64,000 bases of DNA. Source: Erythrobacter cryptus DSM 12079 (GTDB lineage Bacteria; Pseudomonadota; Alphaproteobacteria; Sphingomonadales; Sphingomonadaceae). Location: assembly GCF_000422985.1 (NCBI RefSeq), contig NZ_AUHC01000002.1:1-64000 (forward strand), written 5' to 3'. This document shows positions 41,475 through 49,886 of the stretch, piece by piece. A model generated the notes under the pieces. That model had not been told where the DNA came from, ran no database searches, and saw only the letters and a list, made by a program, of their open reading frames with translations. The position numbers and the translations under genes were made by a program. Each line of letters begins with the position of its first letter. Position 1 is the stretch's first letter.

Positions 41475-42614
41475 TTACATGCCCGAACCCGGGCCGTAGG
41501 TCACTTCCACACGGCGGTTCTGCGCCTCGCGCACACCGTCAGCGGTCGGAACCCGCGGCTTCGATTCGCCGAAGGCTTCGCTCGTGATCCGCGCTGCGGG
41601 GATGCCGCGACCGGTCAGGTAGTTACGCACCGCCATGTTGCGACGCTCGGCGAGGCCCATGTTGTACTTCGGCGTACCGGCGCGGTCGGTGTGACCGGCC
41701 AGCATCACGCTCGCCGTGCCGCAGTTGGCATAGGCCGTGACAGCACCGTTGAGGATGCTCGCGGCCTCGGGCGTGATGTCCGACTTGTCGAAGTCGAAGA
41801 ACACGATGTACGGGCCGGTGTTGCACGGCGCCTTCGGCGGAGGCGGAGGCGGCGGCGGAGGCGGCGGCGGAGGAGGTGGAGGCGGCGGCGGAGGCGGCGG
41901 CGGCGGCGGCGGAGCCTCTTCACCACCAAAGTTGTAGGTGATCGAACCGAGGATCGAGTGCGAGCGGAACTCGGTGTCGAGCCTGCGGCCAAGCGGATCG
42001 ACCAGGTTCACGTCGGGCGCGTTGAAGAAGCGGTACTTGAGGCCGACATCCCACGAATCGCTGAGCGGGGTGCGCAGACCGGCAATCACCTGCCAGGCAA
42101 AGCCGGTGTCCGAATCGTTCCAGATGCCCGGGCCGTTGGCATTCACGCGGCCTTCCATGTCGATGCGCGCGACGCCCACACCGGCGCCAACGAAGCCCTG
42201 AAGCCCATCATCATCGCCGAAATCGGCAAGCCCGTTGAGCATGAAGCTCAGCGCATTGGCTTCACCCAGCGCATCGCGCTGGTCGGTGAAGGTGTTGAAC
42301 ACCTGCGGCGCGCCGGTCGGGTTGAGCACCAAGCCATTGGTCCCGCCAAAAGCGCTGGTGAGGTCAGCCGCACGGTAGCTCGCTTCGGCCTCAAGGCGGA
42401 ACCCGCCGAAGTCATAGCCGATCACAGCGCCGAAGTCATAATCGGTGTCATAGTCGGCGCGAGCGTCGTTCGGGCCGCCGTTCACACCAACCAACTGGTC
42501 TTCGACGATCATCACGCCGCCGTCGCCCTGAATATACCACTGGCCTTCGCGGGCCAGGGCAGGCGAGGTCAGCGCGGTCGAAGCCATCGCCATGCCAATG
42601 ACGAGTTTGCGCAT
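41475..42614 (-). CDS. OmpA-family outer membrane protein with polyproline linker
   Basis: A 379-residue protein with a signal peptide (MRKLVIGMAMASTALTSPALA). An N-terminal eight-stranded porin-like barrel runs to about residue 233 (ending SHSILGSITYNFGG). Next comes a run of 26 consecutive prolines encoded at 41835-41912. The C-terminal OmpA peptidoglycan-binding domain follows, with YIVFFDFDKSDITPEAASIL and LAGHTDRAGTPKYNMGLAERR. It anchors the outer membrane to the cell wall and may form a pore. AAGGGGA precedes the start at 42614. It is monocistronic with a strong terminator. The proline run is unusually long even for this family. Confidence 0.93.
   Translation of the reverse strand: MRKLVIGMAMASTALTSPALAREGQWYIQGDGGVMIVEDQLVGVNGGPNDARADYDTDYDFGAVIGYDFGGFRLEAEASYRAADLTSAFGGTNGLVLNPTGAPQVFNTFTDQRDALGEANALSFMLNGLADFGDDDGLQGFVGAGVGVARIDMEGRVNANGPGIWNDSDTGFAWQVIAGLRTPLSDSWDVGLKYRFFNAPDVNLVDPLGRRLDTEFRSHSILGSITYNFGGEEAPPPPPPPPPPPPPPPPPPPPPPPPPPKAPCNTGPYIVFFDFDKSDITPEAASILNGAVTAYANCGTASVMLAGHTDRAGTPKYNMGLAERRNMAVRNYLTGRGIPAARITSEAFGESKPRVPTADGVREAQNRRVEVTYGPGSGM
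41835..41912. repeat. 78-bp CCG-type microsatellite encoding 26 prolines
   Basis: On the minus strand every codon from 41912 to 41835 is CCG, CCT or CCA, giving Pro26 between the barrel and the peptidoglycan-binding domain. Near-pure triplet runs of this kind change length by slippage, always in frame. Confidence 0.9.
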
Positions 42615-42794
42615 TATAAATTTCCCCTTAGCTTGAGACATGAGGCTCGTTCGGTCTCTATCTTTTCCCCATGGCAGAGGCAAGCCATCAATGCCGCTAT
42701 GGTGTTGCAAGAATGTCGCTATGCTGCGGTTGCGGGCAAAAAAGAAATACAGGCAAAGCCGCCAATTCCGCCATTTCTGCGATCCAATTCGCGC

Positions 42795-45448: not shown

Positions 45449-45883
45449 TTAGACTTCCACTGGAGGGGCAAGGCGCCACTGGGCGCAGATTATCCAGCCC
45501 GGGTCGAAGGGTTGCTGCACCACCCGCCCGAGGCCGGCATGGGCATGGATCACGCTGCCGGCCTCGGCGGCAATCGCGAGGTGATGCTGGCCGCGGCCGA
45601 GGCCAAGCAGCAGCACATCGCCCGCGCACACCGGGCCGCAGGCCTTGATGAGACCAGAACGGTCGGCGCAGGCGAGCCAGGTGCCGATCTCGAGGTTGCG
45701 CAGGCCATAGCCGCGCGGCGTGATGGGGGCGAGGCCGCAAGCCGTGATGGCGGCGGCGACCAGGCCAACGCAATCGAGGCCCGTTGCCGGGTCGCGCCCG
45801 TGGAGGCGGAAGCGGCAGCCCAGCAGCGCCTGTGCGGCACGCAGCAGGCGTTCGCGCTCATCGCCCATGGCCGGCGTCCTCAT
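45449..45883 (-). CDS. GTA gp14-type NlpC/P60 cell-wall peptidase
   Basis: A 144-residue peptidase of the NlpC/P60 fold, with the catalytic cysteine in TGLDCVGLV (C38) and histidines at RGQHHLAI (100-101). In RcGTA the equivalent protein sits in the baseplate and cuts peptidoglycan during DNA delivery. The ATG at 45883 overlaps the gp13 stop (ATGA). Its length matches the family. Confidence 0.9.
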   Translation of the reverse strand: MRTPAMGDERERLLRAAQALLGCRFRLHGRDPATGLDCVGLVAAAITACGLAPITPRGYGLRNLEIGTWLACADRSGLIKACGPVCAGDVLLLGLGRGQHHLAIAAEAGSVIHAHAGLGRVVQQPFDPGWIICAQWRLAPPVEV

Positions 45884-46689
45884 GGCTGGCCGTAGCGGGC
45901 CAGCAGGTCATTGCCCGGCAGGAACGGCTCACCCCGGAAATTGATCGCATTGGCAAAGCGCGCCGCGCAGGTGGCGATGGTGTGGTCGCAGCCTTCGCGC
46001 AGTTCGATGCGCGTACCGGGCTGCGTGCCGGCAACCAGCGGGCGATCGAGCACCAGCCACGCGCCCGCAGCCGCGATCACGCCGAAGGCGATCCCGGTCT
46101 GCGGCCCGGCCAGAAAGCGAAGCCTGCCATCGACGAACAGATCCCCCGCAATCCCCTGAACCTCCACCCGATTGCCGTCGATGTCGATGTTGGTGAGGTG
46201 ATGATGATGCGTGAACCGCACGGGCGAAAGACCGCAGCCCGGGCCGCAGAAAGCCGCGCGGCAGGTGGGGCTGGTGCGCGGCACCAAGTCGCGCTCCAGC
46301 AGGCTCTTGGCCGATCGCAGCTCGGCGGCAAACTGCCGGCGATCATCCTCGATCCTGCCGATCTCGCCGGTGTAGAGCGTGGCGTGCTCGAGGGTCAGCC
46401 AATCGACCGCGCCGATGGCGATGGCGGCTTCATCAAACAGGCCAGCGGCAAGTTCCTCCTCGCGGATCGCCTCGTGGCTGAGCGCGCCCTCGACCTCGGC
46501 GCTGTCATTGGCAAGCTCGCTGGTGAGGCGCACCGCGGCCGGGATCATCCCCGGGGCGGCCATGTGCCGCACCCCGCCGAAGACGAGATCGCGGTCATGG
46601 CTGGTAAAGCCGAGGGCCACGCCGTCGCGGCGGTAGATGCGCCAGAAGGTTGCGACCGTATCGAGATCGCGGTCGAAGAACACCCGCAT
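45880..46689 (-). CDS. GTA gp13-type hub protein (DUF2163 / BR0599 family)
   Basis: A 269-residue protein with the DUF2163-like N terminus (ATFWRIYRRDGVALGFTSHDRDL) and the cysteine-bearing C-terminal part TCRAAFCGPGCGLSP and GCDHTIATCAARFANAINFRGEPFLPG, typical of BR0599-type proteins. In RcGTA gp13 is a baseplate hub with an iron-sulfur cluster; the cysteines here are compatible with that. Start and stop overlap both neighbours. Confidence 0.9.
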   Translation of the reverse strand: MRVFFDRDLDTVATFWRIYRRDGVALGFTSHDRDLVFGGVRHMAAPGMIPAAVRLTSELANDSAEVEGALSHEAIREEELAAGLFDEAAIAIGAVDWLTLEHATLYTGEIGRIEDDRRQFAAELRSAKSLLERDLVPRTSPTCRAAFCGPGCGLSPVRFTHHHHLTNIDIDGNRVEVQGIAGDLFVDGRLRFLAGPQTGIAFGVIAAAGAWLVLDRPLVAGTQPGTRIELREGCDHTIATCAARFANAINFRGEPFLPGNDLLARYGQP

Positions 46690-49010
46690 CAGGCACGCTC
46701 GCGCAGTTCGATCAGCGGAATCGAAGGGGCCTCACCCGCGGCGAAATTGACCGAGGAAATATCGAGCCGATCCTCGGCAAAGCGCACCGGCACGTCGAAC
46801 AGGAAGCCGGCGCGCACCTCGGCGCCCGGCGGCGGCGCTTCGGAAAAACGCAGCACGCCGAGCGGTTCGAGCGTCCAGCCGCTGCTCGGCTCGCCGCCAA
46901 CGCTCACCAGCAGCGTCTCGGCGCGCGGGCGGGTGATCGGGCGCACCTGCGGGTCGGCGGTGCCATAGGTCTTGATCAGCGGAAAATCCGCGCGCAGCCC
47001 ATCGCCCACCCCAAGCAGCTGGTCGAACATCGTGGGCGTTCCGGTCATGCCGTTGGAGCTGTGATCGAAAGGGTCCATGAGGCGAAAGCCGCGCCCCGGG
47101 CCGCGCCGGGCGCGGAAAAAGGCGATGAGCTGGCTGAGCTCGGCTTCCGAGCGGATCCCGGCGCCCACGTCGAAATGCAGCCTTGCGTCGGCCCACAGGG
47201 CATTGCGCCGTTCGTGGCCCGAGGCGGTCACCGCGATCGAGGTGGAAAACTCGGGCGCGACCGAGGCGCCCCGCCCCAAGGCAAAGGGATAGAGGACATC
47301 GTCGAAGGCATCCATGGGTGGCTCCGGAGGCGGGGGCAGGCGGGTGTAGCCATCGCGCGCCACCTGGGGCAGCGCCCAGACATAGCGGCGGGCGATCCCG
47401 CGTGCGGCGGCTTCATCAAGGCCGTGGTCGATGCGTGGCCATTGGGTATCTGCGTCGGCCGGATCAAGCACGAAGCCGGCAAGGTAATCCTGGCTTGCGC
47501 GCGGATAGCCGAGCCAGGCATCAACGAAGGCATAGGCCGTGCGCCGCGCTGCATCGGCGCCCGCAGTGAGCCAGTCATAATCCTCGATCTGCAGCCGGTC
47601 GAAGGCGGGATAGGCCCAGCCAGCCGGCAGATTGGCGCGGTACAGCTCGGGCCGGGCGGGATCGAGGATGGTGGGCGTGAAAGCCAGCAACAGCACCTCG
47701 GCAGCTCCTTCGGCCGCAGCCCGCACCGCGGCGGTGAGCGCCGCGGTTGATTGGGCAAGGAGCGTGCCGGCCGCATCGAGCAGCGCAATCTCAGCCGCAT
47801 CGAGCGGGCCGGCAAGATCGGGGATTGTCGGCGGATTGCCGCCGAGGGCAAGCCTTGCCGCATCGTCATAAAGGCAGATTTCGCCCGCCGGCGTGACCCA
47901 CCACCACGGCTCGCCAATCTGGAAGCGCACTGGTTGCTCGGCAGCTTCCAGCAAGGCGACGAAGGCCCGCGCGACATCGGCAAGCCAGGCCATCGCCTCG
48001 CCATGGGCTGGTGACAAGAGGGTGGAGGGCGGCACCCAACCGGTCAGCGCCGGAGCGCCGTTCGCCGTGCGCTGCTTCCAGCTTTCGGGGCAATAGGCAT
48101 CGAACAGTTCGTACGAGAGCGAGGCGATCACCGAAAAGCCGGCTGCGCGCGCCCGGGCGAAGTAATCGCCATGCCACAGCGCCGCCGGGGTGCACAGCGC
48201 GCCCGGCTGCGCCGCCAGGAGCGCGCCCCCCGCCGTGTGCGCCAGGCGCATGAAGTGGCTCATCCCGACATAGTGGACTATGTCATCGCGATAGCCGAGG
48301 CCGACCAGATTGCGCAGCAGCCGCGCCGGGGTCTGGTTATAGCCATCGTCATAGGCGGTGGCGATGCGCTCCCCATGCGGGGGAACCAACACGTCGCCGA
48401 TCGCCAGCATGGCCCGGGAGCCATCGGCATTGATCTCGGACATGATGACCGACCCGTTGAACCGCGCCGGCAGCGGGGCGGTGCTCCCCGGAACATAGCC
48501 GGGCGCCACCAGCGAGATGAACATCCGGTCGATATCCGAAGGGTGGATCGGCTCGCCGGGCAGGCCATAGCCGCTCTCAAGCTGCGAGAAGGGCAGGGTA
48601 ATGCGCGCATCGGTGGGCGTGCCCTGCGCATAGTTCCAGAGCCGCACATACCAGGTGCGCGGCGCGCCATTGGCATCGCGCCCCTCGATCGTCAGCGTCG
48701 GGCCGTTGGGCTGGTCGAGCGCGATCACCCCTTCGGACTGCCAGCGAAAGCTCAGGGTGGTGTGGGCATAGTCCCGGTCGGTCGCGTAGGCGAGCAGCGG
48801 GTGATCGAGCGCATCGACGCTGTCCCAGATCAGCCCGACGAGTTCGCCGGCATGGTGCAACTCGACTTCGACCCGCAAGGCATCGGGCGCGGTAGTGACC
48901 ACCGCCGCCATCGCCGGCCGCGGGAAATTGACCGTCCAGAAGCGCGGATCGAAGCGCTGGATGAAGCTGCTTTCCTGCCCGCGGGCCGCGCGGGCGAGCC
49001 AGAACGCCAT
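46689..49010 (-). CDS. GTA gp12-type distal tail protein with large N-terminal extension
   Basis: A 773-residue protein. The C-terminal ~208 residues (from MDAFDDVLYPFALGRGA) are a complete DUF2460/TIGR02217 distal tail protein, the normal size of RcGTA gp12. The N-terminal ~565 residues start with a beta-rich region (to about 170). A segment resembling a glycoside-hydrolase-like TIM barrel follows (YVGMSHFMRLAHTAGG, WHGDYFARARAAGFSVIASL, RLQIEDYDWL). A PPPPEPP linker joins the halves. The internal ATG at 47315 is preceded by CCGGAGCCACCC, a good ribosome-binding site, so a separate 208-residue product is possible. The extension may relate to non-contractile tail sheath domains, a name from memory. 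Confidence 0.85.
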   Translation of the reverse strand: MAFWLARAARGQESSFIQRFDPRFWTVNFPRPAMAAVVTTAPDALRVEVELHHAGELVGLIWDSVDALDHPLLAYATDRDYAHTTLSFRWQSEGVIALDQPNGPTLTIEGRDANGAPRTWYVRLWNYAQGTPTDARITLPFSQLESGYGLPGEPIHPSDIDRMFISLVAPGYVPGSTAPLPARFNGSVIMSEINADGSRAMLAIGDVLVPPHGERIATAYDDGYNQTPARLLRNLVGLGYRDDIVHYVGMSHFMRLAHTAGGALLAAQPGALCTPAALWHGDYFARARAAGFSVIASLSYELFDAYCPESWKQRTANGAPALTGWVPPSTLLSPAHGEAMAWLADVARAFVALLEAAEQPVRFQIGEPWWWVTPAGEICLYDDAARLALGGNPPTIPDLAGPLDAAEIALLDAAGTLLAQSTAALTAAVRAAAEGAAEVLLLAFTPTILDPARPELYRANLPAGWAYPAFDRLQIEDYDWLTAGADAARRTAYAFVDAWLGYPRASQDYLAGFVLDPADADTQWPRIDHGLDEAAARGIARRYVWALPQVARDGYTRLPPPPEPPMDAFDDVLYPFALGRGASVAPEFSTSIAVTASGHERRNALWADARLHFDVGAGIRSEAELSQLIAFFRARRGPGRGFRLMDPFDHSSNGMTGTPTMFDQLLGVGDGLRADFPLIKTYGTADPQVRPITRPRAETLLVSVGGEPSSGWTLEPLGVLRFSEAPPPGAEVRAGFLFDVPVRFAEDRLDISSVNFAAGEAPSIPLIELRERA

Positions 49011-49023
49011 TGGGGTTTTCCGA

Positions 49024-49693
49024 TTATGCCTGGTCAAGTGTGCGGCGCACCGCGCTGGCGATCTGGCGGGCAGAACGCTGCATCGCGGCTGGGGCTGCCT
49101 GCCCGCGCGGCACGGCAAGCTGGATGGCCACCCGAACATCCTGAGCGGGGCGTGCAGCCGGACTCGTCTCGATCCGCACCGCAGGGGGCCGGACAAACAC
49201 GATCGGCGCGCGCTCCTGCGCCATGATCGGCGCTTTTGGCGCTTCAGGCAGATTGTCGATCCGGCCCGCGCTGGTGGGCACGAACACCTCGGGCCCTCGT
49301 TCTCCGACGAGGATCGGGCGGCCCGGTGAAACCGGGCCGCCGGTGGCGCGCCCGGGCAGGCCGAAAAGTGCGCCAATCGTCTGGCCAAGCAGGCCACCGA
49401 GGCCACCAGCGCCACCGCCGGCACCGTTTGCCGAACAGGCTGGCCATGCCCGATTGCAGCGCATAGGCGGCAATCTCGCTGAGCGCGCTGAAGGCGATGC
49501 GCTTCAAGTCGTCAAAGCCGAGACTGCCGCGTCGGATCGCCGCCAGCAGGCCCCGCTCGAGCACGTCCCCGGCCCGGCCAAACCCATCGAGCAGCGAGGT
49601 GTCTAGCGACCGGCGCATGGTTTCCAGATCGCTGGCAAAGCCCTCTGTGCGGGCGCGCACGTCGATCACCAGCTCCTCAAATCCTTCGGTCAT
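49024..49693 (-). pseudogene. GTA gp11-type tail tape-measure protein, frameshifted
   Basis: The first part (MTEGFEELVIDVRARTEGFA ... LSEIAAYALQSGMASLF) is the usual GTA tape-measure N terminus. It then runs into nonsense after about 89 residues. The correct continuation (NGAGGGAGGLGGLLGQTIGA, ATGGPVSPGRPILVGERGPE) is in the next frame and ends at 49024. One extra base near 49423-49433 (for example GGCAAACGG in place of GCAAACGG or GGCAAAGG) accounts for the break. Together the two halves give a normal ~220-residue protein. A real mutation, a sequencing error and a programmed +1 shift are all possible. The tail length-ruler would be lost without correction. Confidence 0.85.
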
Positions 49694-49886
49694 GGGCATC
49701 ACGCTCCATCATGCGCTCTATGGTCTCGCGGCTCGGCGGAGCGGGCGAGCCTGGATCGTCCGGCTGGGTGAGCGCCATCGCCAGCTCGGCCGGCGTTGCG
49801 CTCCAGAACTCGTCAGGCCGCCAGCCCAGCCAGCGCGCGGCCAGCGCCCAGCAGCGCTGCGCGGCGGCGGCGAAGGTGGCGCTCAC
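49677..49886 (-). CDS. GTA gp10.1-type tail assembly chaperone
   Basis: A 69-residue protein (ATFAAAAQRCWALAARWLGWRPDEFWSATPAEL...) matching the TIGR02216-like phage tail assembly chaperones in size and tryptophan pattern (WRPDEFWSATPAEL). GTG at 49886 overlaps the gp10 stop (GTGA), and its end overlaps the tape-measure start. It probably chaperones the tape measure during tail assembly, as the second half of the gpG/gpGT-type pair does in phages. Confidence 0.8.
   Translation of the reverse strand: MSATFAAAAQRCWALAARWLGWRPDEFWSATPAELAMALTQPDDPGSPAPPSRETIERMMERDAHDRRI

Follow-up and report, generated by a model that had tools for sequence, protein, structure and literature searches.

The window, meaning the whole stretch of 64,000 nucleotides analysed here, is taken from contig NZ_AUHC01000002.1 of Erythrobacter cryptus DSM 12079 (order Sphingomonadales, family Sphingomonadaceae). 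Its minus strand carries a gene cluster resembling that of RcGTA, the gene transfer agent (GTA) of Rhodobacter capsulatus, with syntenic head and tail genes running from terminase to megatron. The subject of this analysis is gp12, the gene for the distal tail protein (Dit), together with its neighbours in the tail tip (Table 1). A reading made earlier from the letters alone (the sequence-only reading) had described gp12 as a continuous frame of 773 codons, and this frame was confirmed. With alternative start codons allowed, it remains open upstream as far as GTG 49424; ATG 49010, the start of the long form, lies directly 3′ of the end of gp11. NCBIfam models for the portal, proheadase, capsid, connector and TP901-1 tail proteins scored over their cut-offs, the terminase was matched weakly, and 4 of 10 proteins were unmatched. 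Among the tail-tip genes, gp12 and gp13 were over cut-off and gp14 and gp15 below.

Table 1. Features of gp12 and the adjoining tail-tip genes in the window
Feature	Position	Strand	Evidence
gp12 long form, 773 aa	46689..49010	-	ATG 49010 to TGA; open frame; three domains in frame in relatives
NCTSP_N, residues 17-205	48396..48962	-	PF23844, E 5.9e-93, 309.8 bits
TIM-barrel_NCTSP, residues 210-555	47346..48383	-	PF23845, E 1.8e-167, 557.1 bits
Linker, proline-rich in E. cryptus gp12, variable	47316..47345	-	Alignment of relatives
GGAG, Shine-Dalgarno-like, bases -10 to -7 of internal start	47322..47325	-	Sequence; -5.8 kcal/mol
Internal start codon ATG	47313..47315	-	Start codon in column in 170/173 fused genes
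gp12 short form (Dit), 208 aa	46689..47315	-	PF09343, TIGR02217, RcGTA match
gp13, baseplate hub	45880..46689	-	PF09931, PF09356 (Pfam), TIGR02218
gp14, NlpC/P60 peptidase	45449..45883	-	PF00877, E 8.8e-5, 22.9 bits, just under cut-off of 23; TIGR02219 far below cut-off
gp15, megatron without peripheral TIM domain, 726 aa	43264..45444	-	PF13550, PF23666; no PF13547

Domains of gp12 and their relatives

Profile matches identify residues 17-555 of gp12 as the two-domain phage "non-contractile tail sheath" module, PF23844 followed by PF23845, with both scores above the curated cut-off of 27 bits that applies to each; this comparison with tail-sheath domains had been proposed in the sequence-only reading. 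The remainder of the protein, residues 570-770, is a complete DUF2460/TIGR02217 domain, matched by PF09343 (E 3.4e-68), by TIGR02217 over its cut-off, and by the RcGTA protein Rcc01695 (E 2.5e-43). The closest named relatives of the module are found in Porphyrobacter and Erythrobacter, at no more than 82% identity over the module. When 189 loci were examined, the window included, 185 had the three domains in one frame, giving 173 distinct fused genes; the exceptions were L064, L065, L067 and L228. At L064, L065 and L067 the sheath module is interrupted internally and the Dit part is still open, so that by sequence the internal start could still yield a short protein.

The structure of gp12 was predicted with AlphaFold2 from a 48-row alignment, with a mean predicted local distance difference test score (pLDDT) of 88.9 and a predicted template modelling score of 0.85. 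A (β/α)8 barrel was obtained at residues 215-553, and ten-residue blocks from 211 to 560 had pLDDT values of 87-98; the uncertain stretches, 590-609 and 752-760, both lie in the Dit part. Fold comparison placed bacteriophage N4 gp64 first (Z 28-29), followed by the glycoside hydrolases 1kwg (Z 23.3; presumably of the GH42 type), PgaB (Z 22.2) and β-amylases (about 19-22). Pfam, the predicted model and fold comparison thus agree on the TIM-barrel-like extension foreseen from the sequence alone. Four acidic residues (D221, E301, E367 and E476) are the same in all 48 aligned rows, a pattern that fits a candidate glycan-handling site.

Searches of the PDB matched the extension to N4 gp64 (E 1.1e-40 over residues 269-557) and to the 1382 aa chain of the N4 non-contractile tail sheath (E 5e-15), and the stretches QIGEPWWW and QIEDYDW are shared with gp64 (N4 gp64/gp65 structures 9lc0, 9yf4, 9yf5). 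Extracts of PMC12633501 describe gp65 as a long-known receptor-binding protein. N4 differs from the present system in being a podovirus, in having the matching part split over two proteins, and in having no Dit fusion. Among 50,697 phage records, 322 matched residues 1-555, every one at less than 60% identity. The phage relatives, at about 27-34% identity, include phi92 gp142, rV5-like lateral fibre proteins and proteins of the siphophages Halfdan (Lokivirus) and Pavpe01. The module was matched by Pfam in phi92, Pavpe01 and Halfdan, and DUF2460 was not matched in the module proteins of these three phages. In Pavpe01 and Halfdan the module lies on a separate protein of 915-927 aa directly behind Dit, with no Pfam hub match. 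Among the matches listed were also 80 IMG/VR contigs (L275-L354) that are 66-96% identical to the E. cryptus GTA module; judged by module identity, bacterial GTA clusters have probably been filed as viruses in this collection. A faecal phage record of 5.4 kb (MT840053) resembles a fragment of a Sphingomonadales-type GTA, and its module-Dit junction likewise contains GTG together with a purine-rich tract.

The start codon at the module-Dit junction

The sequence-only reading had pointed to ATG 47315, with GGAG upstream, as an internal start that would give the 208-residue Dit. Both elements are present, and both are conserved across the order. In the 173 distinct fused genes the aligned codon is ATG in 116, GTG in 47 and TTG in 7, with AAG, CCT and GCG once each. 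The three genes without a start codon in this column are those of L072, which has ATG one codon downstream, L163, which has GTG five codons upstream, and L223, which has no convincing start nearby. Every valine codon in the column is GTG (47/47) and every leucine codon is TTG (7/7), and across the fused genes these triplets make up 47% of valine and 12% of leucine codons respectively. Conservation of the amino acid alone would leave about half of the valines with codons other than GTG, and about nine in ten of the leucines with codons other than TTG. As all 54 are start codons, conservation of the amino acid does not account for the column. By parsimony, with L072 scored as ATG, the tree requires 33 changes, no more than two of which lead to a non-start codon (AAG, GCG), and the column is therefore not one codon passed down by inheritance. 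A comparison column of methionine and valine elsewhere in gp12 also holds CTG, GTC and GTT. Of the loci in the order that lie outside the family of E. cryptus, 13 of 14 have a start codon in the column, the remaining one being L072.

The internal start is preceded by the consensus GAGGAGG (positions −12 to −6), in which the G at −9 is present in 98% and the A at −8 in 92% of the 173 genes. The mean anti-Shine-Dalgarno energy was −7.9 kcal/mol, against −3.2 for 1753 other in-frame ATGs. When the region was resampled with synonymous codons, the mean was −5.9 and the lowest of 200 means −6.4; the Shine-Dalgarno signal thus comes partly from the amino acids and partly from the choice of codons. 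The corresponding means were −7.6 for long-form starts (n = 169) and −6.9 for gp13 starts (n = 166), each taken from the best nearby candidate, a choice which favours both. The linker between module and Dit is 8-19 codons long (171/173 measured), and a start codon is present in all 172 measurable linkers. The polyproline tract that had been thought to mark the joint proved peculiar to E. cryptus; the relatives aligned have short linkers of varying sequence, and it is the Shine-Dalgarno codons and the start codon that are conserved at the junction. The gene therefore has both marks of an in-frame internal start, a conserved start codon and a Shine-Dalgarno sequence, and the comparative evidence that this start would be used is very strong.

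The module was present at 113 of the loci that were fetched, in frame with Dit at 108 and with the hub at 5; a separate, unfused module beside Dit was found at none of these 113, which do not include every PF23845 match. The hub fusions comprise five loci, L055-L059, of which four come from the order and one (G402) from beyond it, together with ten viral contigs, L355-L364. They have the same module and gene neighbourhood as the Dit fusions. Whenever DUF2460 falls within such a locus it is encoded by a gene of its own, and every complete gp15 is short. They differ in the gene to which the module is joined and in their place in the tree. In a tree of 39 hand-picked barrels (24 Dit-fused, 11 hub-fused and 4 phage), the Dit-fused sequences formed one group (support 97/94) and the hub-fused another (100/99), consistent with one origin for each. 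A start codon between barrel and hub was found at 3 of 12 distinct module-hub junctions (L058, L359, L363), at three different positions; their upstream energies ranged from −2.6 to −3.7. On this comparison, in which 12 junctions are few, the internal start appears to be conserved only in Dit fusions and not in hub fusions.

Among the open-access titles and abstracts listed by our searches, none described a module-Dit fusion or internal initiation within a Dit gene. A similar arrangement is known from two-polypeptide phage endolysins, in which an in-frame internal start gives a long and a short product, one example assembling 1:5 (PMC9430671). These are lysis enzymes, whereas gp12 is a structural gene of the tail ring.

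The gp15 megatron and the barrel families

To the RcGTA megatron, residues 1-221 of E. cryptus gp15 aligned with 1-230 and residues 289-669 with 860-1247, leaving RcGTA residues 231-859 with no aligned counterpart. The peripheral domain of the RcGTA megatron is given as residues 230-744 (extracts of PMC7296036). The peripheral TIM domain is therefore missing from gp15. The TIM profile PF13547 (GTA_TIM) was likewise absent from gp15 and from the whole genome, so that this point of the sequence-only reading stood. A relic of the TIM domain within gp15 was considered and rejected, as the 67 residues between the two matched megatron parts are too few. The same relation was seen in other genomes. 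Among 140 loci (L055-L194), the gp15 span was 631-738 aa at Dit-fused loci (complete in 100/108), 652-696 aa at hub-fused loci (complete in 5/5) and 1096-1408 aa at loci without the module (complete in 21/27, with L060-L062 counted among them). The distribution is thus bimodal: among complete loci, gp15 was short in all 105 that have the module and long in all 21 that lack it. The six loci without the module that were left out of this count are L068 and L069, described below, and L063, L070, L181 and L191, where the gp15 match was incomplete or none was found.

Of 246 sampled genomes of the order, 130 contained PF23845 (129 over cut-off) and 132 contained DUF2460; 129 of the latter also had PF23845, the exceptions being G039, G065 and G021. 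PF13547 was over cut-off in none of the 246, with a single match below cut-off (E 0.001). In a sample of 337 genomes of the class, PF13547 was found in 34 and PF23845 in 5, four of these in the Sphingomonadales, and the two lists did not overlap. The two families were never both over cut-off in a sampled genome. The two barrels were also compared profile to profile, giving a probability of 0.3% and E 0.24 over one 26-column match; this is not significant, and common descent of the gp12 barrel and GTA_TIM was rejected as a claim. The megatron chains of RcGTA and phage R4C were not among the best 50 rows of either fold search, an absence which carries no weight as proof. The sequence-only reading had supposed that the function of gp15 moved to gp12. 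The TIM-barrel extension and the absence of the TIM domain from gp15 stood, and so did the internal start as far as sequence comparison goes; the moved function was not supported in that form, and the polyproline marker is incidental. The barrel families differ, the relatives of the gp12 barrel are phage tail-sheath and lateral-fibre proteins, and a third arrangement, with the module on the hub, exists in prophages; these results suggest replacement by a different module. On the profile evidence it looks as if the gp15 barrel did not literally move, and another barrel family stands in its place.

Three GTA-like loci, L060 (G065), L061 and L062 (G021), contain neither PF13547 nor PF23845. Their gp15 spans 1096-1099 residues, with about 390 residues more than E. 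cryptus gp15 between the matched parts, and their gp13 is about 250 residues longer between its conserved parts. The extra residues of gp13 and gp15 in L060 and L061 had no Pfam match, and these loci possibly carry a third kind of arm. A further three, L063 (G039), L068 (G217) and L069 (G216), are divergent DUF2460/hub loci with another layout and are probably other prophages. At L068 and L069 gp15 is partly matched without a large insert, the module is absent, and about 1.1 kb separates Dit from the hub.

Two probable starts and a proposed mixed tail ring

Sequence comparison supplies the domains, the missing gp15 domain and the conserved second start. From these we infer that gp12 is probably a two-start gene, which would place armed long and short Dit subunits in the tail ring, the arm replacing the peripheral TIM domain of gp15. 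Initiation at ATG 49010 would give the 773-residue protein, with the sheath module ahead of a complete Dit, and initiation at ATG 47315, from its own Shine-Dalgarno sequence, would give the 208-residue Dit alone. That the gene yields both products is, judging from the comparison of start codons, highly probable. Since both forms carry the ring-forming Dit domain, both would enter the six-membered ring at the end of the tail. In RcGTA there are six Dit subunits, odd and even ones contact hub or megatron, the change from sixfold to threefold symmetry lies at Dit, and hub and megatron touch the N-terminal Ala2 of Dit (extracts of PMC7296036); in phage R4C six Dit, three hub and three megatron subunits are found, with the same change at Dit (extracts of PMC10276861). 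With the N-terminus of Dit at the hub and megatron face, an arm attached there would project from the ring on the baseplate side. The arm of the long subunits would thus stand in for the peripheral TIM domain of RcGTA gp15, and its likely function is to recognise, and perhaps cleave, glycans of the recipient envelope. RcGTA shares with E. cryptus a homologous Dit, the megatron ends and a TIM-barrel arm in the baseplate; it differs in that its barrel lies in g15 and its g12 is an unextended 210 aa, whereas E. cryptus gp12 has another barrel family and an internal start.

Because hub and megatron are trimers, arms carried on either are automatically three; as the Dit ring has six members, arms carried on Dit would be six unless half of the subunits were unarmed. 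The second start would supply these unarmed subunits, perhaps leaving three long and three short in the ring, a ratio to which we give slightly less than an even chance. A more tentative extension is that RcGTA-type and Sphingomonadales-type baseplates have exactly three TIM-barrel arms, on megatron (PF13547), hub or Dit (PF23845), with the second start resolving the mismatch of six to three when they are on Dit. If so, L060-L062, L068 and L069 would need another arm or none.

Two products without a fixed ratio are a possible but rather doubtful alternative to this arrangement: the short form would be in excess, and particles would receive zero to six long subunits at random. On average the two starts are predicted to be about equally strong, but they are not matched within single genes (−3.5 for the long and −5.8 kcal/mol for the internal start of E. 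cryptus gp12), and in RcGTA the number of TspA tailspikes varies, with 0, 2, 4 or 6 trimers (extracts of PMC13420450). However, modules on gp15 or on the hub would be present in exactly three copies, hub and megatron being trimers, and a junction start of any kind occurs in just 3 of 12 hub fusions, an indication that copy number is important. It is unlikely that the two forms serve separate structures, the short one building the ring and the long one acting elsewhere, for example as a sheath of the tail tube as in N4. N4 gp64:gp65 does form a sixfold sheath around the tail (extracts of PMC12633501), and the gp12 module is homologous to it; but the long form retains a complete, conserved Dit domain that would be superfluous in a sheath, and fusion to Dit or to hub locates the module at the tail tip in either case. 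Least probable of all, and by our estimate very improbable, is that only the long form is made and that the junction start is a relic, surviving by inertia from a time when gp12 was a gene of its own. Dit genes that stand unfused, in prophages and in other orders, do indicate that an independent start once stood at the junction. A relic would be expected to decay, valine codons drifting to GTC, leucine codons to CTG, and the Shine-Dalgarno sequence with them, yet 170 of 173 genes have stayed within ATG, GTG and TTG despite about 31 or more changes.

Several observations weigh against a two-start gene supplying a mixed ring with a working arm. Amino acids alone account for part of the Shine-Dalgarno signal (the resampled mean above), and three of the 173 fused genes lack a start in the exact column. 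In E. cryptus gp12 itself the internal Shine-Dalgarno sequence is ordinary, four bases of average to weak energy, and that of ATG 49010 is weak. L060-L062, L068 and L069 have neither barrel family, the split gp11 described below means that this particular cluster is possibly damaged, and we know of no enzymatic activity for the sheath module. As the related N4 sheath is sixfold (PMC12633501, in extracts), six long copies in the ring are also possible.

According to extracts of a 2026 preprint (PMC13420450), no function is yet known for the megatron TIM domain, the hub domain or the Dit insertion domain of RcGTA. The presence of another barrel family in 129 of 132 Dit genomes, and never of both, argues that a barrel-bearing arm matters to the particles, and the N4 relative of the arm is tied to receptor binding. 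If the proposed arrangement is true, starting translation at two sites in one gene would be an easy means of combining armed with unarmed subunits within a ring.

Two further observations concern the surroundings of gp12. The tape measure gene gp11 (49024-49702, minus strand) is divided into two overlapping frames, 49699-49244 and 49464-49024; 8 of 8 relatives examined have one undivided frame of 195-201 codons, and the split may be a sequencing error or real damage to the E. cryptus cluster. Near the GTA cluster, a gene at 41475-42641 (minus strand) encodes a protein of 388 aa with a run of 26 prolines, which we take to be OmpA-like from its appearance.

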